From positions 2,480,001 through 2,544,000 of the forward strand of contig NZ_JAIWZC010000001.1 in NCBI RefSeq assembly GCF_020297485.1: a stretch of DNA of 64,000 bases. Direction: 5' to 3'. The position numbers and the translations under genes are program-made. The notes beneath the pieces are model-generated. The model saw nothing but the letters and a program-made list of their open reading frames with translations. It made no database searches and was not told the DNA's origin. Origin of the DNA: Enterocloster clostridioformis. GTDB taxonomy: Bacteria > Bacillota > Clostridia > Lachnospirales > Lachnospiraceae. How positions within the stretch are numbered: position 1 is the stretch's first letter; every line of letters begins with the position of its first letter. Below are positions 10,987 to 28,395 of this stretch, piece after piece.

Positions 10987-12117
10987 ATGAGAAAATTTCA
11001 AAAGGCAACCGCAGTCATCATGGCAGCAGCCCTGGCAGCCACCGGCTGCAGCGCAGGCGGAACAAAGACCAGCGCCCCGCAGCAGCCTTCCGGCACAGAG
11101 GCAGCCAAGACAGAGGCAGCAGCCGGCGCTGATAAGACAGAGGCTGCCAAGGATACTGCTTCCGGTGAAGAGGAGCCTGTGCTGGTGGTCTATACAGCCA
11201 GAAGCGAGGCCCTGAACAACGCCGTGATTCCTGAATTTGAGAAGGATACGGGAATCAAGGTAGAGGTGGTGGTGGCAGGCACCGGCGAGCTGTTAAAGAG
11301 AGCCCAGTCTGAAAAGGATAACCCCCTGGGCGATATCTTCTGGGTAGCTGACCAGACCATGCTCTCCTCCTCCAAAGAACTGTTTATGGAGTATTTTTCC
11401 CCTGAGGATGAAAACATGCTGGATGCGTTCCGCAATACCACCGGCTATTTCACCCCTGCATTTGCAGACCCAACGGTCATGATTGTCAATAAGGACTTAA
11501 AGGGTGACATGAAAATTGACGGCTTTGAGGATTTGCTGAACCCTGAGTTAAAGGGCAAGATTGCATTCGGCGACCCTGTAAACTCCAGTTCCGCCTTCCA
11601 GTCCCTGTTAGCCATGCTCTATGGCATGGGCAAGGACGGAGACCCGTTATCTGACCAGGCATGGGATTATGTGGACCAGTTCATCGCAAACCTGGACGGC
11701 AAGATGGCCAACAGCTCCAGCCAGGTATATAAGGGCGTTGCGGAGGGCGAGTATGTGGTGGGCCTGACCTGGGAAGATCCGGCTGCCAACTATGTGAAGG
11801 AAGGCGCCGCGGTTGAGGTGGTATTCCCCAAAGAGGGCGCCATATTCCCCGGCGAGTCCGTACAAATTTTAAAGGACTGCAAGCATCCTGAAAATGCAAA
11901 GAAATTTGTGGACTATATGCTCTCCGAGAAGATTCAGAACGCAGTGGGCTCCAACCTGACTGTAAGGCCCCTCAGAAAGGATGCCAAGCTGGCTGACTAC
12001 ATGACGCCTCAGTCTGAAATCAAACTGTTTGATAGCTACGACGAGGGCTGGGTGGCTGAGCACAAGACGGAAATTACCAACCTCTTCAGCGAGCATATGG
12101 AGACATCCATGGACTAA
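10987..12117 (+). CDS. ABC transporter substrate-binding lipoprotein (AfuA/FbpA type), locus 1
   Basis: 376 residues. A lipoprotein signal (AAALAATGCSAGG, Cys about 21) is followed by an Ala/Glu/Thr-rich linker. The mature type II binding protein begins VLVVYTARSEALNNAVIPEFEKDTGI. GELLKRAQSEKDNPLGDIFW and FGDPVNSSSAF are typical of the Fe3+/AfuA-like family. First gene of an SBP-ATPase-permease-HK-RR cluster. The family includes ferric-iron binders and hexose-phosphate binders (AfuA, HptA). The linked YesM/YesN system favours a sugar phosphate or other organic phosphate, but that is inference. Confidence 0.9.
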   Translation: MRKFQKATAVIMAAALAATGCSAGGTKTSAPQQPSGTEAAKTEAAAGADKTEAAKDTASGEEEPVLVVYTARSEALNNAVIPEFEKDTGIKVEVVVAGTGELLKRAQSEKDNPLGDIFWVADQTMLSSSKELFMEYFSPEDENMLDAFRNTTGYFTPAFADPTVMIVNKDLKGDMKIDGFEDLLNPELKGKIAFGDPVNSSSAFQSLLAMLYGMGKDGDPLSDQAWDYVDQFIANLDGKMANSSSQVYKGVAEGEYVVGLTWEDPAANYVKEGAAVEVVFPKEGAIFPGESVQILKDCKHPENAKKFVDYMLSEKIQNAVGSNLTVRPLRKDAKLADYMTPQSEIKLFDSYDEGWVAEHKTEITNLFSEHMETSMD

Positions 12118-12170
12118 CTCTTTGCCCGCCCATCTGACAGAACACACGGCACCGGCATGACCATGCCTCC

Positions 12171-12261
12171 AAAGGACTGCCCATTACGCTGACCACATGA
12201 TTCCATCACCGCGCATCACCTCTTGGCGGTCTGAAACGGTCAGATACGGCAGTCCTTTTTT
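12171..12261 (+). terminator. Large two-tier hairpin between SBP and ATPase genes
   Basis: AAAGGACTGCC (12171-12181) is perfectly complementary to GGCAGTCCTTT (12248-12258), followed by more T. Inside, CTGACC (12189-12194) pairs with GGTCAG (12238-12243). The layout fits partial termination after the SBP gene, giving more SBP than transporter mRNA. Confidence 0.7.
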
Positions 12262-12298
12262 CTTCGCAAAAACAAAAAAACAAGGAGGGTTACAAACC

Positions 12299-13399
12299 AT
12301 GAGTGTAGCTATCAGCATTGAAAATGTAATCAAACGGTTCGGAAAGGATACCATTATAAACGGCCTGTCCTTAGACATAAGGCCCGGTGAATTCTTCACC
12401 CTCTTAGGGCCTTCCGGATGCGGCAAAACCACCCTGCTGCGCATGATTATCGGATTCAATTCCATTGAGGGCGGTGAAATCAAGATTGACGGCAAGGTCA
12501 TCAACAACATCCCCACCAACAAGAGAAACATGGGCATGGTGTTCCAGAACTACGCCATTTTCCCCCACATGTCAGTCCGGGACAATGTAGCCTTCGGCCT
12601 TAAGAACCGCAAGGTTCCCCAGGACCAGATCGAGTCCCAGGTGGACGAAATCCTGAAGGTGGTAAAGATTGACCACCTGAAAAAGCGAATGCCCTCCAAG
12701 CTGTCCGGCGGCCAGCAGCAGCGTGTGGCCCTGGCCAGAGCCATTGTCATCCACCCGGAGGTGCTGCTCATGGACGAACCCCTGTCCAACCTGGACGCAA
12801 AGCTGAGGGTTGAGATGAGGAACGCCATCAAGCGCATCCAGCAGCAGGTGGGCATCACCACCATATATGTGACCCATGACCAGGAGGAGGCCCTGGCTGT
12901 GTCGGACCGCATCGCGGTCATGAACGGCGGCGTCATACAGCAGATTGACACCCCCAAAAACGTATACCAGCGGCCCTCCAACATCTTCGTGTCCACCTTC
13001 ATCGGACTGTCCAACATCATGGACGGGCGCATTGAGGCAAAGGACGGACAGACATTTCTTCACATCGGGGATTACAGCGTGCCCATGGAGAACCTTTCCC
13101 GCAGCGCGGACGACGGCCAGGCCGTGAAGGTGTCCATCCGGCCGGAGGAATTCATCATCAACCGGGAGGGCAGCGACGGCATACCTGCCGTTGTGCGAAG
13201 CAGCGTATTCCTCGGCATCACCACCCACTACTTTGTGGAGACCGCAGACGGCAGGGAGATGGAGGTTATACAAAACTCCGATATCTGGGATATCATCCCG
13301 GACCACACCCCCATTCGTCTGGGCGTACAGCCCCATAAAATCAACGTGTTCACTGAGGACGGAAGTCATAGCCTTATTGTCAGGAGGGACCATTCATGA
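12299..13399 (+). CDS. ABC transporter ATP-binding protein (PotA/FbpC/AfuC type), locus 1
   Basis: Energises import through the permease encoded next. 366 residues with Walker A GPSGCGKTT, Q-loop NYAIF, signature LSGGQQQR, Walker B VLLMDEP, the LSNLDAKLR D-loop and switch H in YVTHDQEEAL. A TOBE-like C-terminal regulatory domain follows (VKVSIRPEEFIIN). The start at 12299 has a consensus AAGGAGGG; the frame is open further upstream, but that part runs through the intergenic hairpin. The stop overlaps the permease start by 4 bp (ATGA). Confidence 0.95.
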   Translation: MSVAISIENVIKRFGKDTIINGLSLDIRPGEFFTLLGPSGCGKTTLLRMIIGFNSIEGGEIKIDGKVINNIPTNKRNMGMVFQNYAIFPHMSVRDNVAFGLKNRKVPQDQIESQVDEILKVVKIDHLKKRMPSKLSGGQQQRVALARAIVIHPEVLLMDEPLSNLDAKLRVEMRNAIKRIQQQVGITTIYVTHDQEEALAVSDRIAVMNGGVIQQIDTPKNVYQRPSNIFVSTFIGLSNIMDGRIEAKDGQTFLHIGDYSVPMENLSRSADDGQAVKVSIRPEEFIINREGSDGIPAVVRSSVFLGITTHYFVETADGREMEVIQNSDIWDIIPDHTPIRLGVQPHKINVFTEDGSHSLIVRRDHS

Positions 13400-15060
13400 G
13401 ATATGCGGGAGAGAAAAAATTAAATATATGGGTTGCAATGGCACTGGGAATCCTGGCCCTGTTCCTTCTCTTCGTGGTCTATCCCCTGGTGCTGGTGCTC
13501 TATAAAAGCGTCCTTTCTGAGGACGGAAACTTAAGCTTTGCCTATTTCACCAAATTCTTCGCAAGAAAATACTACTGGAGCACCCTGGTGAACAGCTTCA
13601 AGGTCACCATTGTCTCCACCCTGGTGGCCGCCGTTCTGGGACTGGCCATGGCCTATGTGCTGAGGAGCGTGCAGATTAAGGGAAGCAAATACCTGAACAT
13701 CCTGATTGTCATTTCCTACCTGTCTCCGCCTTTCATCGGGGCCTATGCCTGGATTCAGCTGTTAGGGCGGAACGGATTCTTCACCAAAATACTCAACAGC
13801 CTCTTTCACATAAAGCTGGGCGGCATCTATGGTTTTGCGGGCATCGTGCTGGTATTCTCCCTCCAGTCCTTCCCTCTGGTGTACATGTACATATCCGGCG
13901 CCCTGAAGAACCTGGACAATTCCCTGAACGAGGCAGCCGAAAGCCTTGGCTGTACCGCATTCCAGAGGGTGACGCGGATCATCGTCCCGCTGGTGATGCC
14001 CACTATGCTGGCCAGCTCCCTGCTGGTGTTCATGCGCGTGTTCTCTGACTTTGGTACTCCCATGCTCATCGGAGAGGGCTATAAGACCTTTCCGGTGCTG
14101 ATTTACAGTCAGTTCATGGGGGAGGTCAGCACGGACGACCATTTTGCCGCCGCACTCTGCGTCATTGTCATCGGCATTACTCTGGTCCTGTTCTTCCTCC
14201 AGCGCTATCTGGGCAGCCGCTTCACCTATTCCATGACTGCCTTAAAGCCCATGGCGGCGGAAAAATGCACCGGCACCCGCAACATCCTGTCCCACCTGTT
14301 CGTGTATGCGGTGGTGCTCATCGCCATCCTGCCACAGATTACGGTCATTGTCACATCCTTCCTGGCAACAGGCGGCGGAACGGTATACACCGGGGGCTTT
14401 TCCCTGGAAAACTACAGAAACACCCTGTTCTCCAAGAACAATAACACAGCTATCTTCAACACGTACCTGTTCGGAATATGCGCCATCGCCATCGTGGTGG
14501 TGTTTGGTATCCTCATATCCTATCTGACCGTCAGGAAGAGATCCTTCCTCACGGGCATCCTGGACACGGTGACCATGTTCCCCTACATCATCCCCGGCTC
14601 TGTCCTGGGTATCTCCTTCCTGTATGCGTTTAACAGCAAGCCCCTGCTGCTCAGCGGCACTGCCATTATCATCATCATATCCCTGTCCATACGGCGGATG
14701 CCCTACACCATACGTTCCAGCACCGCAATCATCGGCCAGATCAGTCCCAGCGTGGAGGAGGCAGCCATAAGCCTGGGATGCACCGAGACCAAATCCTTTG
14801 TGAAGGTGACGGTGCCCATGATGATGTCCGGCGTGCTCTCCGGGGCCATCATGAGCTGGATTACCCTGATCAGCGAGCTCAGTTCCTCCATTATCCTGTA
14901 TACCAGCAGAACCCAAACCCTGACAGTGGCCATCTACGCGGAGGTCATCCGGAGCAACTTCGGCAATGCCGCAGCCTACTCCACCATCCTGACCCTGACC
15001 AGTATCCTGTCCCTTCTGGTGTTCTTTAAAGTTACCGGCAGCAACGACATCAGCATTTAG
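13396..15060 (+). CDS. ABC transporter permease, fused double domain (FbpB/AfuB type), locus 1
   Basis: 554 residues with about 12 membrane helices in two homologous halves. Each half has an EAA loop contacting the ATPase: LNEAAESLGCTAFQRVTRIIVPLV and VEEAAISLGCTETKSFVKVTVPMM. Fused permeases of this kind are typical of Fe3+ and AfuB-like importers. Coupled to the ATPase gene by a 4-bp overlap. The downstream kinase gene starts 75 bp later. Confidence 0.95.
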   Translation: MRYAGEKKLNIWVAMALGILALFLLFVVYPLVLVLYKSVLSEDGNLSFAYFTKFFARKYYWSTLVNSFKVTIVSTLVAAVLGLAMAYVLRSVQIKGSKYLNILIVISYLSPPFIGAYAWIQLLGRNGFFTKILNSLFHIKLGGIYGFAGIVLVFSLQSFPLVYMYISGALKNLDNSLNEAAESLGCTAFQRVTRIIVPLVMPTMLASSLLVFMRVFSDFGTPMLIGEGYKTFPVLIYSQFMGEVSTDDHFAAALCVIVIGITLVLFFLQRYLGSRFTYSMTALKPMAAEKCTGTRNILSHLFVYAVVLIAILPQITVIVTSFLATGGGTVYTGGFSLENYRNTLFSKNNNTAIFNTYLFGICAIAIVVVFGILISYLTVRKRSFLTGILDTVTMFPYIIPGSVLGISFLYAFNSKPLLLSGTAIIIIISLSIRRMPYTIRSSTAIIGQISPSVEEAAISLGCTETKSFVKVTVPMMMSGVLSGAIMSWITLISELSSSIILYTSRTQTLTVAIYAEVIRSNFGNAAAYSTILTLTSILSLLVFFKVTGSNDISI

Positions 15061-15084
15061 TCTCTATCTATGATATAATAGGAG

Positions 15085-15109
15085 GTACAGTGTCCAAAGG
15101 GCACTGTAC
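15085..15109 (+). other. Stem-loop between permease and kinase genes
   Basis: GTACAGTGTCC (15085-15095) pairs with GGGCACTGTAC (15099-15109) around an AAA loop. No T tract follows, so it may be an mRNA processing or stability element rather than a terminator. A GGGAGG ribosome site follows at about 15122. Confidence 0.55.
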
Positions 15110-15135
15110 TTCACTACTTCCGGGAGGTACCCGCC

Positions 15136-16863
15136 ATGGCAGGCAACCAGTACAGGGATTATATCAAGCGTTCTTTCTTTAAATACGCAATCTCCATCAT
15201 CTCACTGCTCTTTGTGCTGATGGGGCTGTTTCTGTTCATCAATGTCCAGTGGATCAGCGTGGGAAGTAACCGTAAGAACAACGCCCTCCTGGCATCCATC
15301 CTGGACAGCCAGGTGACATCATATAAGGAAGGTTTGGAACACTTTTCCACGGATTACCGCTTTTGGGATGCCCTGAAGCAGGAAAATACAGATGCAGCCA
15401 CCCAGGTCAACCGGCTGCTCTACGGCTTTACCACGTCCCAGCCCATACGGAGTACCTTTGCCCTTACGGATACAGAGGGACGCATAGTGAGCTCCAGCCT
15501 TTTCGAGGGCAACCGCGCTATCTTCCTGAACAGCGCTGTCTATAAGAGCCTGGTGGAAAAAATGCAGGAAGCGCCTGCCCTGACCCACACCATGCCCAGC
15601 CGCCTGAATTTTGCCCACGGACAGGCCGGGGATCTGCTTTTGGCCCACTCCCTCGCGGACGCGGACGGTATCTGCGGATACCTGTTTTTCGATCTGATGG
15701 ACGAACAGATTTATGAGGCGGTGCGGGAATACCCCCTGGACGACGTGGTCATCACAGACCGGTACGACAACCTGATTTTTGCAGTGGGAAGGCAGAACGC
15801 AGATCCCATGGAGAAATATCCTGCCGGCAAATACAGGATGGACTGGCAGAAGGGTAATATTGTGAAGGTCAACAACAAGCATTACCATATACACAAGGAA
15901 GCCCTTCCTGAGAGCTCCCTGATTCTATACACACTGGTATCCATGGAATTCCAGCGCAGCCTTGTGACCTACGGCATTCTGTTTCTGGGGCTGGCCGGAA
16001 TTCTAATGGTCATCATGATTCCGCCCCTGACCCTGCGCATCACAAAAAAGAACCTGCAGGCCATTGACGAACTCCAGTCCTCGGTGGAGGAAATGGGGCG
16101 GGGAAATATGGACTACCGCTTAAAGAGCCAGGTTTTCGACGAATTCCAGATGCTCAACGACGCGTTCCGCAACATGGTGATTCAGCGCGAGGAGCTGATG
16201 CTTCACAACAACGAGCTGGCGGAGCGCAAGCGCATCATGGAAATCAAACAGCTGGAGGAACAGTTTAACCCTCATTTTATTTTCAATGTATTGGAAACAC
16301 TCCGCTATGAGATTGCCATTGACTCTCAGAAGGCCTCGGAAATGGTCATGGCCTTTGCCAACCTGATGCGCTACAGCATATATTACGGGAGCACCATCGT
16401 GCCCCTGCAGACCGACGTCGAATACATCAACGACTATCTCCTGCTCCAGAAGATGCGCTATAACCGCAGGCTGAATTACCATATCGACATCCCTGAGGAG
16501 CTGATGGATTTAAGGATTCCAAAGCTGCTCCTTCAGCCGGTGGTGGAGAATTCCCTGGTCCACGGAATGAAGGATAAGCACAGTGTATCCGTTACCATCA
16601 CGGCCCGTATGGAGGACAGTACCCTGGTGCTGTGCGTGGAGGACAACGGCAGCGGCATCAGCCGGGAAAAACTGACGGAGCTGCGGGAAGCCCTGGAGCA
16701 GGAGGATATTTACAGGGAACATATCGGATTATATAATTCCCACCGGGTGGTGCGGCTCCTCTACGGCCCTTCCTACGGCCTGACCATTGAGAGCTCCCCC
16801 GGAAACGGAACGCGGGTGAGCGTCACACTTCCCGCGGATATGGAGGAGGATACATATGTATAA
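15136..16863 (+). CDS. YesM/LytS-type sensor histidine kinase, locus 1
   Basis: 575 residues. A first membrane helix (about 14-37, FFKYAISIISLLFVLMGLFL) precedes an extracytoplasmic sensor of about 240 residues, a second helix (about 277-303) and a HAMP-like linker with ELQSSVEEMGRGNMDYRL. The His_kinase domain has EEQFNPHFIFNVLETLRYEI (phosphoacceptor His). The ATPase domain has QPVVENSLVHG (N box), VEDNGSGIS (G1) and GNGTRVSVTLP (G2). The stop overlaps the response regulator start by 8 bp. It probably senses the state of the linked importer or its binding protein. Confidence 0.93.
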   Translation: MAGNQYRDYIKRSFFKYAISIISLLFVLMGLFLFINVQWISVGSNRKNNALLASILDSQVTSYKEGLEHFSTDYRFWDALKQENTDAATQVNRLLYGFTTSQPIRSTFALTDTEGRIVSSSLFEGNRAIFLNSAVYKSLVEKMQEAPALTHTMPSRLNFAHGQAGDLLLAHSLADADGICGYLFFDLMDEQIYEAVREYPLDDVVITDRYDNLIFAVGRQNADPMEKYPAGKYRMDWQKGNIVKVNNKHYHIHKEALPESSLILYTLVSMEFQRSLVTYGILFLGLAGILMVIMIPPLTLRITKKNLQAIDELQSSVEEMGRGNMDYRLKSQVFDEFQMLNDAFRNMVIQREELMLHNNELAERKRIMEIKQLEEQFNPHFIFNVLETLRYEIAIDSQKASEMVMAFANLMRYSIYYGSTIVPLQTDVEYINDYLLLQKMRYNRRLNYHIDIPEELMDLRIPKLLLQPVVENSLVHGMKDKHSVSVTITARMEDSTLVLCVEDNGSGISREKLTELREALEQEDIYREHIGLYNSHRVVRLLYGPSYGLTIESSPGNGTRVSVTLPADMEEDTYV

Positions 16864-17653
16864 AGTCCTGATTGTGGAGGACGAGGACATCATACGCAAA
16901 GGCCTGCTGTTCATGGTAAACTGGCAGGACGCGGACTGCGTGGTGGTAGGGGAGGCAGCGGACGGACTGGAGGGACTGGAAAAAATCCGGGATACCAGCC
17001 CGGATATCGTGGTGGTGGACATCAACATGCCTGTAAAGGACGGCCTTTCCATGCTGGAGGACAGCATAGAAGAATACGGCTATGACGCCATCATCGTGTC
17101 CGGCTACAGCGATTTTGAGTACGCCAGGAAGGCTATCCGCCTGGGAGTCACGGAATACCTACTTAAGCCTGTGAATTTTAACGAGCTCTATGACGCTCTC
17201 GGAAAGATTAAAGCCAAGCAGCTGGCAGCGGCCAGGCTCAGGCATGAGATGAAGCAGCTGGACATGGAAAAACGGAAGTTAGGCATACTGGACGAGCCGG
17301 AAACAGGGGACAGCCCCGAAGGAAACCGCCATGTGGATCACATGATGGACTGCATCCGAAACCACTACAGCTCCCACCTGTCTCTTACGGATATCAGCGA
17401 ACAGTGCGGCATGTCCTGCACCTATCTGAACTCCAAGTTTAAAAGCTTCACCGGCTATACCTTCAACGACTATCTGAACCGCTACCGGATGCAGAAGGCC
17501 GTGGACCTGCTGAAGGAAAATAAATACAAGGTCTACGAAATTGCAGACCTTGTGGGCTTCTCGGATTATAAATATTTCATCAAAGTGTTTAAAAAATATG
17601 TGGGATGCTCTCCGGTCAAGTTCATGGAGGGCGGCGGCGCCGGAGGCTGGTAA
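16856..17653 (+). CDS. YesN-type response regulator (REC plus AraC HTH), locus 1
   Basis: 265 residues. The receiver domain has acidic pocket VEDEDI, phospho-acceptor Asp in DIVVVDINMPVKDG, Thr/Ser in VSGYSD and Lys in LLKPVN. A short linker leads to a C-terminal AraC-type double helix-turn-helix (SLTDISEQCGMSCTYLNSKF and VYEIADLVGFSDYKYFIKVFKKYVGCSP). The short REC-HTH form matches HptR/YesN-like regulators. The likely target is its own transporter operon. Confidence 0.93.
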   Translation: MYKVLIVEDEDIIRKGLLFMVNWQDADCVVVGEAADGLEGLEKIRDTSPDIVVVDINMPVKDGLSMLEDSIEEYGYDAIIVSGYSDFEYARKAIRLGVTEYLLKPVNFNELYDALGKIKAKQLAAARLRHEMKQLDMEKRKLGILDEPETGDSPEGNRHVDHMMDCIRNHYSSHLSLTDISEQCGMSCTYLNSKFKSFTGYTFNDYLNRYRMQKAVDLLKENKYKVYEIADLVGFSDYKYFIKVFKKYVGCSPVKFMEGGGAGGW

Positions 17654-17738: not shown

Positions 17739-18572
17739 TTAAGGATTTATTACTTTATTCCCTACCGGCACCATAACCTTGACTATATACTGTTCATACG
17801 CCTTCACCGTCAGCTCGTCCAGCATCAAATCCTCATACCATATCTTCCCCAGCCGGATTCCCCGCTCCCCTGCAAAGGCGGTGATGAGACGGTAGGACTT
17901 TTCCATGTTCCACAGATGGCCCCTGCTGTACAACTCCACGTAGGTTCCCTCCGGCCGATTCTGAACCCGGTGGGAGACAGTTTTCTTGTCCAGCCTGGTA
18001 TACACCTTCACGCAGCGGTCATATATGCCACGTTCCAGGTCCTCTCCCAGATAAATGGATCCCACTGCGCCCACTGCGCCGTTGTACTTTTCCTGCATTC
18101 TGACATGCTCCGCAATCTCCACCGCGGCCTTCCGCTCCGATCCCGCGCTGATGTCCGACACCAGCAGATATTCCCTGTCCCTCTCCACCAGCCTTGGCTC
18201 GTCCAACGCGGTGTTCATGGCCAGCCTCACCGACTCTTCCTCATGAAGGATAAAGCGCTTCATATTCTTCAGACGCCGTATCTCCTCGTCAATCTGGCGC
18301 TTCTTTCCGTCTATCATGGACATGAACCGCTCCGGGGAACGGTTTTCCATATACTCCTTGATTTCCCCCAGGGACATTCCCAATTTCTGCAGGGCGCGAA
18401 TGACCTCGAACGTGTCCATCTGCCATACAAAATAATACCTGTATCCGTTCTCCTCCTTGATGGCCGGGGAAAAAAGGCCTATTTCGTCGTAGTGAAATAA
18501 AGTGTGCTTCCCGACCCCCAGTATTCTGGCGAATTCCCCGGTGGTAAAATATAGTTCCGACTGTTTTTCCAT
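17739..18572 (-). CDS. MerR-family regulator with effector-binding domain (BmrR-like)
   Basis: 277 residues. The N-terminal MerR HTH is [29 protein letters not shown], with the GYRYY wing, then a long coiled-coil linker. The C-terminal domain of about 150 residues resembles GyrI-like/BmrR effector-binding domains (ending [12 protein letters not shown]). Such proteins bind organic cations or drugs and activate efflux genes. It is divergent from a MATE pump gene whose promoter has a 19-bp spacer with an internal dyad, so it very likely controls that pump. AGAGGAGA precedes the ATG. Confidence 0.9.
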
Positions 18573-20176: not shown

Positions 20177-20956
20177 TCACGACACTCCTTTGATAAACTT
20201 GGTGGGAGATTTGGAGGTATATTTTTTGAACACGGAGCAAAAATGCTTGTAGTCCGTAAATCCGGTGGCCTCTGATATCTCACTGATTCTGTACTGTCTG
20301 GTGCCCAGCATCACGATGGCCTGCTGTACCCTGTATTTATTGAGAAAGTCCAGGAAGGTCTGCCCCGTGACCTCCTTGAATTTCCTGCTCAGATAGCTGG
20401 CGCTGACCCCCAGGTCATCTGAGATGGATTCTATGCTCAGCTTCCTGGCAAAATCCTCCCGTATGGCCTTTATGGCCCTGGATACATACTGGTTCTCCGA
20501 CAAATCCAGCTGCATGTAGTACTCCAGGTTCAGGTTGCCCCCCTCTATCTCCGCCTGCTCCATCACATGCTCCACCTGGCGGCTGTTCACGATTTCCTCC
20601 CCCAGCCGTTCCATGATATCTGCCAGGGCTTCCTCGTCCACAGGTTTTAGCAGGTACTCGCAGACCCTGGCCTCGATGGCGCGCCTGGCATACTCAAAAT
20701 CCGCGTAGCTGGTCAGGAGGATGCTCTTAAACCTTACCTGCTCCGAGGCTTTCTTTATCATCTCTATGCCGTCCATAAAGGGCATGCAGATATCCGTTAT
20801 GACCACATCCGGCCTGTATTCCAGAATCTTTTCATATCCGTCCCGGCCGTCGGCGGCCTCCGCCACCACCACGCAGTCCATGGACAGCCAGTCCGTGGTA
20901 TAGACCAGCCCCTTTCGTATCATCTCTTCGTCTTCCGCAATCAACACACGCAACAT
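20177..20956 (-). CDS. YesN/HptR-type response regulator, locus 2
   Basis: 259 residues. The receiver domain has AEDEEM, phospho-acceptor Asp in PDVVITDICMPFMDG, and Lys in LLKPVDEE. The C-terminal AraC HTH has SIESISDDLGVSASYLSRKF and ISEISEATGFTDYKHFCSVFKKYTSKSP. Overlaps the kinase gene by 16 bp. Last gene of the SBP-permease-ATPase-SBP-HK-RR operon. Its length and order match the HptR part of the staphylococcal HptRSA hexose-phosphate sensor, from family memory only. Confidence 0.93.
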   Translation of the reverse strand: MLRVLIAEDEEMIRKGLVYTTDWLSMDCVVVAEAADGRDGYEKILEYRPDVVITDICMPFMDGIEMIKKASEQVRFKSILLTSYADFEYARRAIEARVCEYLLKPVDEEALADIMERLGEEIVNSRQVEHVMEQAEIEGGNLNLEYYMQLDLSENQYVSRAIKAIREDFARKLSIESISDDLGVSASYLSRKFKEVTGQTFLDFLNKYRVQQAIVMLGTRQYRISEISEATGFTDYKHFCSVFKKYTSKSPTKFIKGVS

Positions 20957-22653
20957 CCGTCTGATTCCTCTCTTTTCACCGGCAGGGTCACCACCAGGGT
21001 GGTGCCGTGCCCCTCCGCGCTTCTGATCTCCACCCCGTAGGGGCGTCCGTACAGGATATCGATTCTTCTGTGAATATTATACAGTCCCGAATGCCTTCTG
21101 GGATTTTCCTTCTGTTCCAGCAGGGCTGTCAGCTCGCTTAAGGTGCACTGTGGGATTCCCACCCCGTCGTCCCGGCATATCATGATTAATTTTCCCTTAT
21201 GGATATAGGCTTTCAGCTCCACGGTCAGGTTAAGCTGCTTTCCAAACCCGTATTTCACTGCATTCTCAATCATGGGCTGGAGCACCAGCTTGGGAATCCG
21301 CAGGTCCATGGTCTCCGGCTCCACGTCAATCCTGCACCGGAACCGTTCCCCAAACCTGCGCTTTAATATGGTCAGATAGGATTCCAGATGCTCTAAGTCC
21401 TCCTTTAACGTCACCTCTGCCTTGCTGCCGTCCAGGCTGTAGCGCAGAAGATTGGACAGGCTGAACACCATCCTCTCCGCTGTTGCAGGCTCCAGCTTGC
21501 ACATGTACCGGATGTTCTCCAGGGTATTGTACAGGAAATGGGGATTGAACTGGGATTCCAGCTGCTTGTTCTGGGCCATGGACACCAGCTCCGCCATCTT
21601 CCGGTTGTTCTCCATCTGGATTCTCAGGCTCTGTATGGTCTCGTTATAGGCGTCGGCAATGATTTTGAATTCATTGTCGCTCTGTATCCGTATGACACCT
21701 TCCAGGTCTCCGTCCCTGGCATTCTCCATCACATCCAGAATTTTATAGAAATCCTCTGTTTTTTTCTCCGTCACCTTCCTGGAGTTGAGAAGCATCCACA
21801 GGGTCATGAGCACCAGGGCCGTGATGACCAGGCCGCTGCCCAGGCCCAGTGAAATGACAATGTTCTGGATATCGGAGATGGAATACACGGCAAACCCTCC
21901 CCTGGAAACCCGCTGCCTGGAGACCAGATACATCTGTTTCTTTTGGCTCAAATACCTGCCCGACTCCATGAGGACCTTCATGACCTGGTTGCTGCTGTTT
22001 AAGAAGCTGTAATTACTGCTGACATAGGCCCAGCCAAAGGGATCCGCGATAATGGTCTGGATATCCGGCTTGTCCACAAGTGCCTTAAACTGGCTGCTGG
22101 GAATGGAACACAGTATATAGCCCTGCTTTTTGTTCCCATCCATCACGCTCCGCCCTATGACAATCGTACTGCCGCCGTTTTTCCATCCTTCCGCCAGCTT
22201 AAGAGCCGTCCTGTTGGGCTCCCGGTCCATATCGTCAAATATGCCCCAGGACACGCCCTCCGGCACATCCAGGAACGGAGGGAGGTCACTGCGGCTGGAC
22301 AGAAGGATGCTCCTGCTGCTGTCCATGACAAACAAATCACCCTCCAGTCCCAGACTGTTGGTGATGCCGTAAAATTTCCCAGACAGCTCAGCCTTTCCGT
22401 CCTGGTCGCGGACTCTGTCAAAGAGGCCGGGCTGGGAAGCCATTTCCTCCACACCATCCTCATACCGCGCCAGCACGTTGTCCAGCAGACCGGCCACATA
22501 CCGGTTGTGCTCAATATTGCCGCTCTTTTTCCCGTGGAGCAGCACCGTCATAAAGAGCAGGCCGCACACCAGGGTAAATACAACCGCCGGGACAATGGCG
22601 TAGGCGATAAACATGCGCTCCAGTTCATGGCGGAAATACCGTTCTTTCTTCAC
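20941..22653 (-). CDS. YesM/HptS-type sensor histidine kinase, locus 2
   Basis: 570 residues. Helix 1 (about 12-36, MFIAYAIVPAVVFTLVCGLLFM) is followed by an extracytoplasmic sensor of about 240 residues and helix 2 (about 270-290, LGLGSGLVITALVLMTLWML). The kinase core has ESQFNPHFLYNTLENIRYMC, QPMIENAVKYG (N box), CRDDGVGIP and GHGTTLVVTLP. The start overlaps the stop of the upstream SBP gene by 4 bp (ATGA), the strongest hint that this SBP delivers the signal to the kinase. Confidence 0.93.
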   Translation of the reverse strand: MKKERYFRHELERMFIAYAIVPAVVFTLVCGLLFMTVLLHGKKSGNIEHNRYVAGLLDNVLARYEDGVEEMASQPGLFDRVRDQDGKAELSGKFYGITNSLGLEGDLFVMDSSRSILLSSRSDLPPFLDVPEGVSWGIFDDMDREPNRTALKLAEGWKNGGSTIVIGRSVMDGNKKQGYILCSIPSSQFKALVDKPDIQTIIADPFGWAYVSSNYSFLNSSNQVMKVLMESGRYLSQKKQMYLVSRQRVSRGGFAVYSISDIQNIVISLGLGSGLVITALVLMTLWMLLNSRKVTEKKTEDFYKILDVMENARDGDLEGVIRIQSDNEFKIIADAYNETIQSLRIQMENNRKMAELVSMAQNKQLESQFNPHFLYNTLENIRYMCKLEPATAERMVFSLSNLLRYSLDGSKAEVTLKEDLEHLESYLTILKRRFGERFRCRIDVEPETMDLRIPKLVLQPMIENAVKYGFGKQLNLTVELKAYIHKGKLIMICRDDGVGIPQCTLSELTALLEQKENPRRHSGLYNIHRRIDILYGRPYGVEIRSAEGHGTTLVVTLPVKREESDGCCVC

Positions 22654-23777
22654 TGGCTCCCCACCTCCCCGGATATGCCTGCGTCCTCCTCAAGCACCCT
22701 GTTGTAAATAGAGGCAAAATGCTCCAGCCACGTCCCCTTTCTGGAATTCACCTCCTCCTCCCTGCTGTATATGATGTGGATATCCTCCTTATCCGGCAGG
22801 TAGGAAGGTTCCTCCACATCCTTTCTCACGGAACGGCGGTCCAGCCTCATGGAGATAACGGTCTGGGCGTCCTTACCCGTTACAAAGTCCACAAAATCCC
22901 TGGCCTCCTCCACATGGCGGCTGCCCTTTACGATACAGACGCTGTCCGGCGTGGAGATAACCCCCTCCTTCATATACACCAGCTTTACCGGCCCCTTGTC
23001 CGCCACATAGTGGGCGGCCGCCTCCTCAAAGGTAAGGCCCACGGCGTATTTTCCACGGGCCACCCCCTGGTACACCTCCCCGGATCCGCCTAACAGGATA
23101 CCGTCCAGATTCCGGCAGAAGTCCTCCACGTAATCCCAGCCCTGCTCCGGCTCCCCGTCCCCCATGGCATAAAGCATATTGATGAGATGTTCGTAGGCCG
23201 AGGACGACGTGGCAGGGTCGCACATGGCAATTCTGCCTTTCAGCTCCGGCTTTAACAGATCCCCGTAGCCCTCCACCTCCACATCACCAATCAGGTTTGT
23301 ATTCACCATGATTACGCTGGGAATATCCGTGAACCGGCTCATATTGCCTTCCCTGTTCTTAAACTCATCCCGCACCATATCCTCATTGCGGCTTATGTAG
23401 GGCTCAAACAGCTCCCTCTTGGGACTGGTAGTGGAAAGGGAACCGCCCCAGAAGATGTCGCAGGGAGGATCGCTCCCCTCCTCCGCCATCTTAAGTAGCT
23501 CCCCCGTGCCTCCGGTCTGGACAAAGACCCGTATTCCGGTCCGTCCCTCAAATTCCGACACAATGGGGTTGATGAACTCAAGGGGATGAGGGCAGTAAAT
23601 CACCAGCTCCTCATCCCCTGCATGGTCCCCGCCTGCCGCATAATCCGCACCTGTCACATGGTCCCCGCCTGCCGCATGGCCCGCAGCCGCAGAAGTCCCG
23701 CTGCCTGCGCAGCCGGCCAGGCAGAGGGACATCCCTATCACTGTAATATATTTGTTCCAACTCTTCTTCATACCCAT
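22650..23777 (-). CDS. Sensor-linked extracytoplasmic binding lipoprotein (HptA/AfuA type), locus 2
   Basis: About 375 residues from the ATG at 23777. The frame opens at 23876, but the lipoprotein signal (ITVIGMSLCLAGCAGSG) begins near 23777, where AGGAATCAG precedes the ATG. The linker is Ala/Gly/Asp rich with repeats such as AGGDH. The mature domain runs ELVIYCPHPLEFINPIVSEFEGRTGI, with GELLKMAEEGSDPPCDIFWG and MCDPATSSSAYEHL, homologous to the locus 1 SBP. It is the second SBP of this operon and overlaps the kinase gene, so a co-sensor role is likely. The ligand may be a sugar phosphate by analogy with HptA. Confidence 0.88.
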   Translation of the reverse strand: MGMKKSWNKYITVIGMSLCLAGCAGSGTSAAAGHAAGGDHVTGADYAAGGDHAGDEELVIYCPHPLEFINPIVSEFEGRTGIRVFVQTGGTGELLKMAEEGSDPPCDIFWGGSLSTTSPKRELFEPYISRNEDMVRDEFKNREGNMSRFTDIPSVIMVNTNLIGDVEVEGYGDLLKPELKGRIAMCDPATSSSAYEHLINMLYAMGDGEPEQGWDYVEDFCRNLDGILLGGSGEVYQGVARGKYAVGLTFEEAAAHYVADKGPVKLVYMKEGVISTPDSVCIVKGSRHVEEARDFVDFVTGKDAQTVISMRLDRRSVRKDVEEPSYLPDKEDIHIIYSREEEVNSRKGTWLEHFASIYNRVLEEDAGISGEVGSQ

Positions 23778-23918
23778 CTGATTCCTCATACTGCCTGCCA
23801 AACCACATCCTCCGGCCATGCTGTCCGGGGGGCGCATGGCCCGGCAGCCGACCTTCTTCCGGCCATCCGGAACCAAACCGGCCCGGGCATTATACCTTTC
23901 GACATTATACCAATGTGT

Positions 23919-24995
23919 CTACAGGATGTAAACCCCCTTGGGATCGAAATCCAGGTATGCCTTCTCCCCCACCTCGTATATCCTGCGGTTCACGGGATTG
24001 TAATCCGTAATCTGAATCTCCATGTTCCCCACCATGACCTGATAGTACTGATAGGATCCCATGAAGGTGGACAGGGTGACAGTGCCTTCCAAAAGCCCCT
24101 GCTCCGCCAGGGTTGCCCCCTCGGGCCGGATAACCAGCACGGCGTCATCCCCCGGCCCCGCCTTTGCAAAATTGTTGACCGTAAGCTCCTGTCCCACAAC
24201 GTCGATAACCGCCTTTTCACCGCTTGCGGACCTGACCTTAGCCTCCAGAAAATTGGCCTCACCGATGAAGTCTGCCACGAACCTGGAATTGGGATGGTAG
24301 TAAATCTCCCTGGGCGTCCCAATCTGCTCCACCTTTCCCTTGCTCATGATAATGATTTTATCGGAAATGCTCATGGCCTCGGACTGGTCATGTGTCACAT
24401 AGATGGCCGTAATGCCCACCTTCTGCTGGATTTTACGGATTTCCGTCCTCATAGTGACCCTCAGCTTGGCGTCCAGGTTGCTTAAGGGCTCGTCAAAGAG
24501 CAGTACGCTGGGCTCGATGACAAGGGCCCTGGCCAGTGCCACGCGCTGCTGCTGGCCGCCGGAGAGCTGGTTGGTCATGCGGGACTCCATGCCCTCCATC
24601 TCCACCAGCTTGAGGATGCTCATGACCCTCTCATAAATCTCCTCCTTGGGGAGCTTGCGTATCTTAAGGCCATAGGCCACATTGTCAAATACATTATAAT
24701 GGGGCAGAAGGGCGTAGCTCTGAAACACCATGGCCGTATCCCTCTTATTGGGCGTCAGAGCATTGATGGCCTCATCCCCCAGGTAAATATCCCCCTCATC
24801 CGGGCTCTCAAATCCCGCGATCATGCGCAGGGTAGTGGTCTTGCCGCATCCCGAAGGCCCCAGAAGTGTCACAAAGCTGCCGGGCTCAATATCCAGGGTG
24901 GTATCCTGCACTGCATAGAATTCCTTCCCTGTCTTTGGATCTGTATATATTTTGGAAATGTGTTCCAGACGAACACCTTTTTTCTGTTTATCCAT
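23919..24995 (-). CDS. ABC transporter ATP-binding protein (PotA/FbpC/AfuC type), locus 2
   Basis: 358 residues with Walker A GPSGCGKTTT, signature LSGGQQQR, Walker B VLLFDEP, LSNLDAKLR and the switch His in YVTHDQSEAM. A C-terminal TOBE-like domain follows (VLVIRPEGATL, ending DFDPKGVYIL). The start at 24995 is chosen for its GAGGAGG site; the frame is open 9 codons upstream. It follows the permease gene across an intergenic repeat pair. Energises import through the locus 2 permease. Confidence 0.94.
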   Translation of the reverse strand: MDKQKKGVRLEHISKIYTDPKTGKEFYAVQDTTLDIEPGSFVTLLGPSGCGKTTTLRMIAGFESPDEGDIYLGDEAINALTPNKRDTAMVFQSYALLPHYNVFDNVAYGLKIRKLPKEEIYERVMSILKLVEMEGMESRMTNQLSGGQQQRVALARALVIEPSVLLFDEPLSNLDAKLRVTMRTEIRKIQQKVGITAIYVTHDQSEAMSISDKIIIMSKGKVEQIGTPREIYYHPNSRFVADFIGEANFLEAKVRSASGEKAVIDVVGQELTVNNFAKAGPGDDAVLVIRPEGATLAEQGLLEGTVTLSTFMGSYQYYQVMVGNMEIQITDYNPVNRRIYEVGEKAYLDFDPKGVYIL

Positions 24996-25010
24996 ATCAA
25001 CTTTCCTCCT

Positions 25011-25072
25011 CGCTATGAGCACTTAGCGTCTGTCTTTTAGACGCTTACGTGCGATGCATGCCACTGGCGCTT
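25011..25072. repeat. Intergenic direct repeat, copy 1 (62 bp)
   Basis: Starts CGCTATGAGCACTTAGCG and ends ATGCATGCCACTGGCGCTT. It contains the small hairpin GCGTCT/AGACGC. Nearly identical to 25107-25168 (3 differences). Confidence 0.85.
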
Positions 25073-25106
25073 GGCGGGCGTCCTTTGACCGCTTAGCGCA
25101 GCGGCC

Positions 25107-25168
25107 CGCTATGAGCACTTAGCGCCTGTCCTTCAGACGCTTACGTGCGATGCATGCCACTGGCGCTT
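25107..25168. repeat. Intergenic direct repeat, copy 2 (62 bp)
   Basis: Second copy, 96 bp downstream, between the ATPase and permease genes of locus 2. Two of the three differences fall in the hairpin, which is weakened. The repeat touches the permease stop codon. Confidence 0.85.
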
Positions 25169-26873
25169 ACTCCTGCTTTATCTTCCTGCTGACTCCGAAG
25201 AACTTCATCAGGGTATTCATGATAAGTACCGCGCCGTAGGTTATGATAATCAGTACGGTTGCATAGGCGCATGCCACGCCGTAATTGCCCTTCTCAGCCT
25301 GCTCATTGATCTGGCAGGTGATGAGTAAGAAGTCAGGCGTCACCAGAAGAATGATGGCCGAAATTGCCGTGATGCTCCGCACAAAGGCCGTCACCAGGCC
25401 GCTGAAAAAGGAATCCTTAATCAGAGGAAGCGTTACGGTCATAAACACCTTGGCGGAGTTAGCGCCCATATCGTAGGCGGATTCCTCGATGGACTTGTCA
25501 ATCTGGCGCAGGGCTGAGATACCGCTCCTGGTGCCGGTGGGAAGGCTTCGCACGATGAATACGATAATCAGGATAAGGCCGGTTCCGTAGAGGCCGCTCA
25601 TGACGCCGGTCCTGAACAGGCCATTGGCATAACCCCTGATATATCCGATACCCAGCACGGTGCCGGGCACCGCCATAGCCAGCATGGATACGAATTCGAT
25701 AAATCCCTTGGCCTTAAACCGTTTCTTTACCACCAGGTAAGAGATGACCATGGACAGGAAGGCTGTCAGGGGAGCTGCAATCAGGGACAGGACAAAGGAG
25801 TCCTTAAAAGCCTTAAGTCCGCTGGTCTTAAACATGTACTGGAACCATTTAAGGCTCAGGCTGTAATCCCTGCCCCAAAGGGTGAACAGCGCGCCAAAGG
25901 GCACCATAATGTACATCAGCATGACAAAGACTGACACGGCGCCGCAGAAAATGGTCAGGGGAACCGTTACGCTCTTATCCTCTATGAGCATCCTCATGCG
26001 GGAAGCCTTTCCCGTAAGGGTGGCTGCGGTTTTCTTCTCCAGATAATACTTCTGGATCAGGAACAGGACCACGGTCAGGGACAAAAGCACTACGGACATG
26101 GCCGCGGCTCCGGTGGAGTCATAGGCTCCTGTCACCTGCAGATAGATGGTGGTGGCCAGTGTGTCGTAGGAACCTCCAATCAGCATGGGGTTGGCAAAAT
26201 CCGCCACAGACTCGATAAAGGTTACCAGGAATGCATTGCCCAGTCCGGGAAGAAGAAGGGGAAATGTAACGCTGGTAAACACCTTCCACCGGGTAGCTCC
26301 CATGTCCCTGGTCGCCTCTTCCAGGGAGGGATCGATATTCTTTAAGAGTCCCTTAAGCATCAGATAGCATACGGGGAAAAAGGTCAGCGTCTGCACAATG
26401 GCGATTCCCTTAAGCCCGTATACATTGGAATCATAGATTCCCAACAGGGATCGGGTGATGATGCCGCTTCGTCCAAACAGCATAATCATGGACAGTGACA
26501 GCACAAAAGGAGGGGAAACCACGGGAAGCATGGAAACCATGGCAAACAGCTTCTCAAGCACCTTTGTCTTAAGCTTTACATACACCTCCACATAGGCGAA
26601 CAGCAGACCGATGGCAGTGGATGCGATTCCCGTAATCATGCCTAACACCAGGGTGTTTTTAAAAGCCTTCTGGAACCGCTCCAGGCTCAGCACCCTCCCG
26701 AATACCTCCAGGGTAATCTTACCTTCCGAATAAAAGCTGTCTACCAGCAGCATCAGAAGGGGGTACAGGATGAACAATGCCAGGAATACCAGCAGTACCA
26801 CAATCATGCTTACCAGTATGGGGTCTGAAAAAAATTTCTTGCGCTCCAGATCAGCGCTCTGTTTTCTGGCCAC
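25167..26873 (-). CDS. ABC transporter permease, fused double domain (FbpB/AfuB type), locus 2
   Basis: 568 residues with about 12 helices in two halves. EAA loops are LEEATRDMGATRWKVFTSVTFPLL and IEESAYDMGANSAKVFMTVTLPLI. Related to the locus 1 permease but with a different gene order (permease before ATPase). The upstream gap of 180 bp to the SBP gene holds a strong hairpin. Imports the ligand of the dedicated SBP at 27054-28256. Confidence 0.94.
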   Translation of the reverse strand: MARKQSADLERKKFFSDPILVSMIVVLLVFLALFILYPLLMLLVDSFYSEGKITLEVFGRVLSLERFQKAFKNTLVLGMITGIASTAIGLLFAYVEVYVKLKTKVLEKLFAMVSMLPVVSPPFVLSLSMIMLFGRSGIITRSLLGIYDSNVYGLKGIAIVQTLTFFPVCYLMLKGLLKNIDPSLEEATRDMGATRWKVFTSVTFPLLLPGLGNAFLVTFIESVADFANPMLIGGSYDTLATTIYLQVTGAYDSTGAAAMSVVLLSLTVVLFLIQKYYLEKKTAATLTGKASRMRMLIEDKSVTVPLTIFCGAVSVFVMLMYIMVPFGALFTLWGRDYSLSLKWFQYMFKTSGLKAFKDSFVLSLIAAPLTAFLSMVISYLVVKKRFKAKGFIEFVSMLAMAVPGTVLGIGYIRGYANGLFRTGVMSGLYGTGLILIIVFIVRSLPTGTRSGISALRQIDKSIEESAYDMGANSAKVFMTVTLPLIKDSFFSGLVTAFVRSITAISAIILLVTPDFLLITCQINEQAEKGNYGVACAYATVLIIITYGAVLIMNTLMKFFGVSRKIKQE

Positions 26874-26956
26874 AATGAGGCCCCCTTTCCCGAGGAATTC
26901 TTTCCTCTTGATTTCTTACAGTCCTTTCTGCCAAGCCAGGACCATAATGTAACAAA

Positions 26957-26992
26957 TGCTGCGTAATGAATGATGACAACCATTACGCAGCA
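26957..26992 (-). terminator. Perfect 12-bp hairpin between SBP and permease genes (attenuator or 3' stabiliser)
   Basis: TGCTGCGTAATG (26957-26968) and CATTACGCAGCA (26981-26992) form a perfect stem with a 12-nt loop. On the minus strand it is followed by TTTGTTA, a weak T tract. The position suits partial termination after the SBP gene. Confidence 0.65.
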
Positions 26993-27053
26993 CCCGTTTG
27001 CAAGCTCACACTACATTACGTTTCCAAGTGCCGGACACCGGCAGGAGCCCTGC

Positions 27054-28256
27054 CTATTCTGTCAAGAAACGGCTGGAGTCCGCGCTGTCGGAGGAGCTTC
27101 CAAGAGCTGCGAAGAAGTCCTCTACATACTTGGCACTGTTTTCCTTTGCATCCTCAAAATCATAGTCAATGGTATTGTTCATATCCAGACCAAATTTCGT
27201 AGCTTCCTCAGGCTGGGTGGCATTGCTTAATACCAGGAACTGATAGGAGCCGTTCTCCTTGGCGTGGTCCACACAGTCAGGAGACAAAGCATATTCAATC
27301 CACAGCTTGGCTGCGTTTGGATGTGCGCATCCGTTGAAGATGGCGGTAGCGCCTACCTCAAAGGAGGTTCCGTCCTCAGGAACGATCAGCTGGATATTGT
27401 CATAGCCCTGAAGAATCTGGTAAATGCCGTCATGAAGGAATCCGATACCGATTACGCACTCGCCCGGGCCTACCATCTTGGATGGGCCGGAACCGGACTT
27501 GGTGTACTGGGAAATGTTCTTGTCCAGGACCTTGAAATACTCCATGGCCTCGTCATGTCCCTTCATCTGAACCATGGTGTTGATGAGCAGTTTTGCCGTA
27601 CCGGCCGTGTTGGGGTTGGACAGCATGATGAGTCCCTTGTACTCTTCCTTGGTCAGGTCATCCCATGTCTTGGGCGCCTCCAGGCCCAGGCGGTCCAGTT
27701 CTTCCGTATTGACCATGAAGCCCAGGATGCCCTTGTAGATGCCGTACCAGCAGTTGGTCGGATCCTTGTACTGGTCGCCAATCAGGTTCTTGGCATTGAT
27801 GGCGTCATACTCCATCAGAAGGCCGTCAGCTACTGCCTCGTTATAGGGGTCTGTGGTTCCGCCGAACCATACGTCGGCAGATGGTTTGCCGGCTTCCTCG
27901 GATATCTTGGTATAAACCTCTGATGTGGAAAGTCTCTGGTATTTTGTCTTGATTCCGTACAGCTTCTCAAAATTCTGGCAGGCGGCAGACAGATATTCCT
28001 CCTCGCAGGAACCGTATACAGTCAGTTCGCCTTCGGCCTTGGCCGCCTTGATGAGGGCATCCATATCCCCGCCCGCAGCCTCAGCCGCCGTGGTTTCTGC
28101 CGCGTCATCCCTGCTCTCCTCCTTTGCAGCCTCCGTAGCAGCTGCCGTGGTGGTCTCAGGCGCGGCCGTGGTTTCTGCCGCCTTGTTACCGCCTCCGCAG
28201 GCAGTAAGGCTTAAAGCCATGGAGCATGCCAACAAAAGTGCCAGTTTTTTCTTCAT
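27054..28256 (-). CDS. ABC transporter substrate-binding lipoprotein (AfuA/FbpA type), locus 2 importer
   Basis: 400 residues. The lipoprotein signal ends in MALSLTACGGGNKA (Cys about 20), then an Ala/Glu/Thr-rich linker. The mature domain begins ELTVYGSCEEEYLSAACQNFEKLYGI, with EEAGKPSADVWFGGTTDPYNEA and MLSNPNTAGTAKLLIN. It is the first gene of the locus 2 operon and the likely transport SBP, while the second SBP sits with the kinase. A long hairpin covers its ribosome-binding site. Confidence 0.9.
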   Translation of the reverse strand: MKKKLALLLACSMALSLTACGGGNKAAETTAAPETTTAAATEAAKEESRDDAAETTAAEAAGGDMDALIKAAKAEGELTVYGSCEEEYLSAACQNFEKLYGIKTKYQRLSTSEVYTKISEEAGKPSADVWFGGTTDPYNEAVADGLLMEYDAINAKNLIGDQYKDPTNCWYGIYKGILGFMVNTEELDRLGLEAPKTWDDLTKEEYKGLIMLSNPNTAGTAKLLINTMVQMKGHDEAMEYFKVLDKNISQYTKSGSGPSKMVGPGECVIGIGFLHDGIYQILQGYDNIQLIVPEDGTSFEVGATAIFNGCAHPNAAKLWIEYALSPDCVDHAKENGSYQFLVLSNATQPEEATKFGLDMNNTIDYDFEDAKENSAKYVEDFFAALGSSSDSADSSRFLTE

Positions 28257-28262
28257 AATAAT

Positions 28263-28313
28263 ACCCTCCTTCTCATTTCTGATGATTTCATCATAGCAGA
28301 AAAGAAGGAGGGT
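28263..28313 (-). promoter_or_regulatory. Long hairpin sequestering the ribosome site of the locus 2 SBP gene
   Basis: ACCCTCCTTCT (28263-28273) is perfectly complementary to AGAAGGAGGGT (28303-28313). The stem continues as TTTCTG/CAGAAA and ATGAT/ATCAT with two small bulges. On the mRNA the 3' arm is the AGAAGGAGGGT Shine-Dalgarno, 6 nt before the ATG at 28256. It could control translation. A TATGAT sits at 28290-28295 on the minus strand, so it might instead be an operator over a -10. Confidence 0.7.
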
Positions 28314-28395
28314 AAAAACCGCATTTCAAGTAATTTTGTCGTGATTTCTGAACATGTCTACTGTTTTTTTATCTAATATACACAACCATATCTAT

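Follow-up and report, generated by a model that had tools for sequence, protein, structure and literature searches.

Six genes on the minus strand of a 64,000-nucleotide stretch of the Enterocloster clostridioformis genome (contig NZ_JAIWZC010000001.1, positions 2,480,001 to 2,544,000; the window) encode, in order, a substrate-binding protein (SBP1, 27054..28256), a permease (25167..26873), an ATPase (23919..24995), a second substrate-binding protein (SBP2, 22650..23777), a sensor histidine kinase (HK, 20941..22653) and a response regulator (RR, 20177..20956). An importer and its binding protein are thereby encoded together with a separate SBP2-HK-RR unit. It is probable that SBP2, predicted to be undocked from the permease, serves as a sensor for the kinase only, and that the RR activates the importer genes through a box ahead of SBP1. 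A preliminary description of the locus, whose placement, order and strand of the six genes were confirmed by the list of open reading frames (ORFs), had proposed such a dedicated sensor SBP; evolutionary rates and the loss of a docking glutamate support the proposal beyond the argument given there.

Evolutionary rates of the two binding proteins

Relatives were identified in a scan of 84,980 species genomes, and the best 80 of 539 confirmed relatives were used and sorted by gene order. Class A comprised loci with the layout of the window (eight of these best 80, with the addition of L025, L087, which is cut by a contig end, and the window itself). Class B (SBP-ATPase-permease-HK-RR) and class C (ATPase-permease-SBP-HK-RR, Selenomonadales) carried one SBP, class D comprised importers beside which a kinase was not seen, and class E had SBP-HK-RR beside an importer with a protein of 449–455 residues in the place of the SBP (L089, L090, L091 and L103; L029 is the same locus as L089, and L090 was too short to show the importer). 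In at least three loci (L110, L112 and L032; class A'), the sensor genes came first and were followed by an AfuABC-type importer. The gene order of the window recurred in at least 10 further loci, and its layout is therefore not due to chance; seven of these were complete (L036, L037, L039, L040, L041, L044 and L025), the incomplete ones being L038 (several fragmented ORFs), L035 (SBP1 split in two and a contig end behind the HK) and L087 (contig end inside SBP2). A family sample of 150 genomes contained 11 with a match at E values up to 1e-60; the genome of the window had eight matches to SBP2, and the 10 other matched genomes showed class A (one), class A' (one), class E (one), class B (five) or the order HK-RR-SBP-ATPase-permease (two).

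Comparison of these loci showed that the rate of SBP2 follows that of the kinase rather than that of the importer, and that the SBPs of one-SBP relatives keep approximately the pace of the permease. Mean distances in class A (eight loci), expressed relative to the permease, were 1.76 for SBP1, 1.52 for the ATPase, 5.49 for SBP2, 5.80 for the HK and 2.97 for the RR. The corresponding values for the SBP and the HK were 1.14 and 2.26 in class B (15 of the 16 given loci) and 1.27 and 5.22 in class C (18 of 21 loci), one and three loci, respectively, having been dropped because a component was missing or outside the length limits. The ratio of nonsynonymous to synonymous substitution rates (dN/dS) in three class A pairs was 0.086, 0.103 and 0.160 for SBP2 and 0.105, 0.096 and 0.188 for the HK, with 0.025, 0.007 and 0.019 for SBP1; dS was alike among the six genes within each pair, except for the RR in the pair formed by the window and L036.

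The window also contains a sibling operon with a single SBP (SBP-ATPase-permease-HK-RR, 10987..17653, plus strand), which served as a matched control for rates. Between the window and [Clostridium] citroniae, 71 of 311 residues differed in SBP2, compared with 10 of 316 in the sibling SBP (Fisher test, 2e-14), and 10 of 340 differed in SBP1; dN/dS was 0.020 for the sibling SBP versus 0.160 for SBP2. Median dN/dS in class C (63 non-independent pairs) was 0.040 for the SBP, 0.052 for the permease and 0.220 for the HK. Pairs with a permease dS outside 0.05–1.6 were dropped from the class B and class C medians.

That SBP2 changes several times faster than SBP1 would also be expected if it were under relaxed selection and heading for loss, with the HK alone acting as the sensor; CuaSR of Ruminiclostridium still perceives cellobiose in the absence of CuaD, although less efficiently, according to the available text of PMC10384115. 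This explanation is very improbable, as the dN/dS of SBP2 (0.086–0.160) still denotes strong purifying selection, its ligand core (e.g. G90, T91, S191, S193, E251, G272 and R315) was invariant in a 35-row alignment and SBP2 was present in all eight complete two-SBP loci, the window included.

Permease docking and the origin of SBP2

The segment D212–E222 of PotD is located between PotB and PotC, and the substitutions E220A/G221A/E222A weaken binding to PotABC (PMC11414716, available text). PotD E220-G221-E222 was paired with residues 241–243 of SBP2 (R-G-K, encoded at 23049..23057 on the minus strand) in four MAFFT modes and in hhalign. The E222 position was occupied by glutamate in all 48 importer-coupled SBPs (class B 22/22, class C 21/21 and class D 5/5), in the five SBP1s tested, in AfuA and in PotD. 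Other residues were found there in the eight class A SBP2s (K in two, Q in three and R in three), in the three class A' sensor SBPs (K, T and T) and in HptA (K). In a second two-SBP arrangement of the same genome (L010, 6517–17015), which consists of SBP-ATPase-permease-phosphoglucomutase and then SBP-HK-RR, the sensor SBP has R at this position and its importer partner has E. Importer-coupled SBPs had 131 columns with a conservation of 93 % or more, of which 11 correspond to PotD contact positions; five of these 11 were lost in classes A and A', compared with 13 of the 120 others (Fisher test, 0.0077), and the addition of class E gave 6/11 versus 14/120 (0.0017). As judged from these alignments, SBP2 likely no longer engages the importer or docks to its permease.

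It is improbable, although not to the same degree as relaxed selection, that both SBPs feed the importer and widen its substrate range, with the HK sensing through either SBP or directly through its outer domain. Importers of the same family with several SBPs do exist in Brachyspira, where two to four SBPs precede one ATPase-permease pair, and the outer domain of the HK resembles the ligand-binding dCache fold. The Brachyspira loci nevertheless provided a positive control, the docking glutamate being kept in all 11 SBP copies of four multi-SBP importer loci (copies of fewer than 281 residues were left out) and lost in the class A SBP2s. SBP2 also differs from the importer in distances and dN/dS, and its gene is tied to that of the HK by a 4-bp overlap. 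This overlap reads GTGA rather than ATGA, as had been described, and the HK start codon is GTG. In the four Brachyspira loci concerned (L095, L096, L105 and L106), the SBPs stand in series before the importer, and the family kinase was not seen beside them.

In a careful 53-row tree, one clade (95/97) nested among importer-coupled SBPs united the sensor SBPs of classes A, A' and E. This tree was rooted, by our choice, on the L010 importer SBP and omitted HptA, AfuA, L029 (as a duplicate of L089) and 16 of the 21 class C rows. A quick tree placed HptA within the same sensor group (Shimodaira–Hasegawa approximate likelihood-ratio support 99, long branch), and SBP2 belongs to the HptA clade. The L010 sensor SBP fell outside the A/A'/E clade, a single common clade being rejected (approximately unbiased test, P = 0.0067) with long-branch warnings. 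The trees suggest that sensor SBPs of the SBP2 kind arose from importer-serving SBPs. We tentatively propose, with somewhat more doubt than confidence, that loss of the E222 equivalent marks the switch of a dual importer/kinase SBP to a pure receptor, that it occurred at least twice in the family and that it would free the SBP to co-evolve with the kinase; a one-residue test could then sort the SBPs of thousands of SBP-HK-RR operons without an assigned role into sensors and transport proteins.

Ligand sites and control region

SBP1 is an AfuA-type lipoprotein, predicted to be the transport SBP. Its top match in the PDB was AfuA (4r72, E 3.7e-61) and it keeps the equivalents of AfuA H205, D206 and E229, which bears out the AfuABC-like half of the preliminary description. 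Adjoining SBP1 are a permease and an ATPase of the AfuABC type: the permease is a single fused chain with two BPD_transp_1 stretches (PF00528), and the ATPase (PF00005) has a TOBE_2 domain (PF08402), its ORF opening at 25022 with a likely ATG at 24995 preceded by the ribosome-binding site AGGAGG. Equivalents of H205 and D206 were found in 14 of 14 SBP1s of both AfuABC-linked layouts and that of E229 in the 13 that were long enough (L035 is a fragment); two paralogues from the genome of the window (L011 and L012) had only part of the triad or none of it. AfuABC imports hexose and heptose phosphates in Actinobacillus and Citrobacter, His205, Asp206 and Glu229 of AfuA are essential for sugar-phosphate binding and sugar phosphate has been reported in the mouse gut (PMC4546632, available text). 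We infer that the compound passed by SBP1 to the permease would be a phosphorylated hexose or heptose.

An alternative that we consider unlikely is that SBP1 binds another phosphorylated compound, such as pyridoxal phosphate or a phosphonate, or Fe3+, and that the locus is not a sugar-phosphate system. The best NCBIfam matches were models of phosphonate transporters (phnS2, PhnU2 and PhnT2), and some AfuA contacts are altered in SBP1 (T11 to E, I186 to S and Q269 to L). Phosphonate import was rejected on the scores of SBP1 and SBP2 (177.1 and 95.1 bits) against the curated PhnS2 cut-off (TIGR03261, 392.75). In the ferric-binding FbpA family, an adjacent Tyr-Tyr pair provides the iron ligands. 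Neither SBP showed such a pair (SBP1 in the alignment, SBP2 first by eye); near the TYY of cFbpA, SBP1 has FLHD and SBP2 has TFEE. Iron import was set aside, as the Tyr pair was missing from the alignments seen and the AfuA triad was present. P5PA, a close relative of SBP1, binds pyridoxal phosphate, but it lacks or does not use D206 and E229 (PMC8427247, available text), which SBP1 keeps with H205.

The HptRSA-like half of the description was likewise upheld. SBP2 is an HptA-type lipoprotein (ORF 22650–23876, likely start ATG 23777 with a lipoprotein-type leader), whose top PDB matches were HptA 6lki (E 2.5e-38) and 6lkg (E 5.2e-38); Foldseek of its model also returned 6lkg as the best match. 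The HK is of the LytS type (His_kinase PF06580 and HATPase_c), with a dCache/double-PDC-like outer domain, two transmembrane helices and a HAMP-like linker, the helices and linker being read from the predicted model and not from profile matches. Its best PDB match was the GanS kinase domain. The RR combines a receiver with an AraC-type helix-turn-helix domain (Pfam), and its gene overlaps that of the HK by 16 bp (20941–20956), as described. The phosphate contacts of AfuA have counterparts in SBP2 (S37 as T91, G59 as G112, S148 as S191 and T150 as S193), and these residues were constant across the 48 importer-coupled relatives and the eight SBP2s of the two-SBP layout; a phosphorylated ligand is therefore likely for SBP2. 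Phosphate-site residues are present in SBP1 as well. In SBP2 the sugar triad is not kept, E252, A253 and T276 occupying its positions.

A 24-bp box (GTTCAGAAATCACGACAAAATTAC, 28330..28353, minus strand) lies 74–97 nt upstream of the SBP1 ATG, is kept in same-layout loci and is a predicted operator to which the RR may bind. With up to three mismatches allowed, the 5.87-Mb genome contained no other match, and a control pattern gave none. A relaxed form (GTTCA-N8-GAYA-N4-TRC) gave 35 matches in 94 loci (1,587,973 bases), compared with 0, 0 and 0 for three control patterns, all 35 on the operon strand. Thirty-one lay 59–140 nt upstream of a called start, which belonged to the leading gene of the importer or (class E) to the 449–455-residue protein. 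The others were those of L037 (98 nt upstream of a re-called start), L072 (ORF start called too early), L046 (no called start within 400 nt) and L090 (next ORF cut by a contig end). By class, the relaxed box was found in 9/10 loci of class A, 10/30 of class B, 10/25 of class C, 4/4 of class E and two unclassed loci, with 0/8 in class D and 0/3 in class A'. Classes A and E have distinct sensor and importer parts, and here it stood before the importer and not before SBP2. The sensor-first locus L032 has a degenerate site before SBP1 (20.8 bits, compared with 23.5–37.0 for the nine training sites). The predicted −10 element of the SBP1 promoter is TATGAT (28290..28295, minus strand). An imperfect inverted repeat, TTCTG..CAGAA (28277–28301), overlaps it and is a possible second operator, with a cleaner form (TCTGATA..TATCAGA) in L039 and L041.

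The claim that all six genes share one transcript stood only in part, as a conserved promoter-like element separates the ATPase from SBP2. In the window this element (23904..23932, minus strand; 11/12 matches) reads TTTACA-17-TATAAT with TG before the −10, the TTTACA being located in the last ATPase codons. TG-R-TANAAT was found 6–7 nt past the ATPase stop in nine of 10 two-SBP loci (the exception being L040), compared with approximately 0.004 expected per locus by chance, and the SBP2-HK-RR genes therefore probably also have a promoter and transcript of their own. By the standard of the preliminary description this counts against a single transcript, yet it strengthens the sensor reading.

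Under that reading, SBP2 with bound ligand would act on the HK at its outer dCache domain, in the same way that HptA acts on HptS, and the HK would phosphorylate the RR. Binding of the RR to the box would increase transcription of the SBP1, permease and ATPase genes, and SBP1 would pass its ligand to the permease. The promoter of SBP2-HK-RR itself would maintain basal expression of these genes, to which read-through may add.

Several results weigh against this interpretation. Class B median dN/dS values were close (SBP 0.113, permease 0.126 and HK 0.146; five usable pairs), and the difference in the other matched genome pair was not significant (21/318 versus 10/316, P = 0.064); given the weak contrast in class B, the argument from rates is carried by the distances, class C and the matched pair. 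The class E sensor SBPs keep the docking glutamate in four of five rows (three of four distinct ones, one row being a duplicate). Enrichment of PotD contacts was modest (Fisher test, 0.0017–0.029) among related sequences, the lost columns were unclustered along the chain (permutation P = 0.14–0.55) and the tree is weakened by long branches and few independent origins. The exact box was absent from L087, all three sensor-first loci, 20 of 30 class B loci and 15 of 25 class C loci. HptS was not among the matches listed in the sequence and fold searches with the HK, an absence that is uninformative. Finally, the ring-contact positions of SBP2 are unlike those of AfuA and mostly unlike those of HptA, so that SBP2 may sense another phosphorylated compound.

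Further features were noted in and around the locus. A strong hairpin with a 19-bp outer stem (26951..26998, minus strand; predicted by folding) separates SBP1 from the permease; by eye, a similar hairpin with different stem letters was present in five of the seven other loci folded (L044, L036, L039, L040 and L025) and none was found there in L041 and L038. The permease-ATPase gap (25011–25167) contains a repeat in two direct copies, whose 27-base core occurs at four genomic sites at up to two mismatches. The sibling operon points towards the two-SBP operon, the two being separated by a MerR-type regulator (17739–18572) and an ORF that by eye resembles MATE efflux proteins (18689–20017). The halves of L010 are separated by an opposite-strand gene without a Pfam match. 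As metabolic hints, the L010 importer is followed by a phosphoglucomutase/phosphomannomutase gene, and a Cof-type HAD hydrolase (PF08282, also PF05116) stands behind the RR in both one-SBP loci checked (L027 and L028). A third family operon (L009, 7736–14563, G000:C1 at approximately 4.48 Mb) keeps SBP and ATPase with a permease ORF of just 359 residues; HK-RR was not seen in the 16 kb covered, and its relatives L142 and L143 have a full permease, HK and RR.

Comparison with known systems

A description of an AfuABC importer joined to an HptA-type sensor was not found in the open-access literature searched, within the terms used. Most Clostridia genomes hold several SBP-HK-RR clusters in which the SBP may belong to a transporter, act as a sensor or do both. 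Here one genome and one protein family appear to hold both states, the change that separates them lying at a loop whose docking role has been measured in PotD, and purification of two SBPs and one permease would allow a direct test of how a transport protein becomes a receptor. The window would also be a case, in an anaerobe, of an AfuABC-type importer that likely has its own sensor for sugar phosphates.

One-SBP operons (10987–17653 in the window, L142, L143 and many in Clostridia and Selenomonadales) share the SBP, HK and RR families, but their SBP stands beside both importer and kinase, keeps the docking glutamate and evolves at a permease-like pace. AfuABC shares with the six-gene locus the kinship of SBP1, the sugar triad, a fused permease and a single ATPase; the predicted importer of this locus is in addition joined to a three-component sensor. 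Near afuABC on island OI-20 of enterohaemorrhagic Escherichia coli, the two-component system named in the available text of PMC4546632 is a fucose-sensing one, and an SBP cassette of the HptA type is not named there. HptRSA of Staphylococcus aureus, in which HptA acts on HptS (PMC8774646; see also PMC8534201 and PMC6291074, all in their available text), has the same order and types of SBP, HK and RR and a double-PDC-like outer HK domain, and HptA resembles SBP2 in carrying a basic residue where docking glutamate would stand. The target of HptRSA is the antiporter UhpT, whereas the neighbour in the window is an ABC importer, and the ring contacts of SBP2 also differ; because the neighbouring target is not uhpT, the unit is called HptRSA-like and not HptRSA.

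A transport and a sensor SBP in one cluster, as in systems of the Cua and XylFII type, are indicated in the window by the rates and the docking loop. The XylFII-LytS-YesN and GanS systems likewise place a sensor SBP beside a transport SBP with a LytS-type kinase. They act on xylose or galactan-derived sugars and use other SBP families than those of the window. Both XylFII-LytS-YesN (Clostridium beijerinckii) and the Geobacillus galactan system with GanS are named in PMC10384115, which describes, in its available text, CuaABC/CuaDSR of Ruminiclostridium cellulolyticum. The latter has two SBPs with divided jobs and an AraC-type RR that induces the importer, but it differs from the six-gene locus in its ligand (cellobiose), its SBP family and its division into two separate operons, of which the sensor operon is expressed constitutively (PMC10384115). 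Binding of CuaS by CuaD and not by CuaA was measured there (PMC10384115); in the window its counterpart is inferred. The box and the internal promoter fit regulation of the importer together with basal expression of the sensor, the pattern reported for cuaABC/cuaDSR. What appears to be new in the window, as read from its sequence, is an SBP2 at the pace of the kinase, the loss of the docking glutamate, the box on the importer side and a conserved promoter before SBP2. Two-SBP importer/sensor systems are already known (Cua, XylFII and Gan), and the six-gene locus is, by its predicted proteins, their variant of hexose-phosphate type, in which an AfuABC-type importer is combined with an HptRSA-like sensor.

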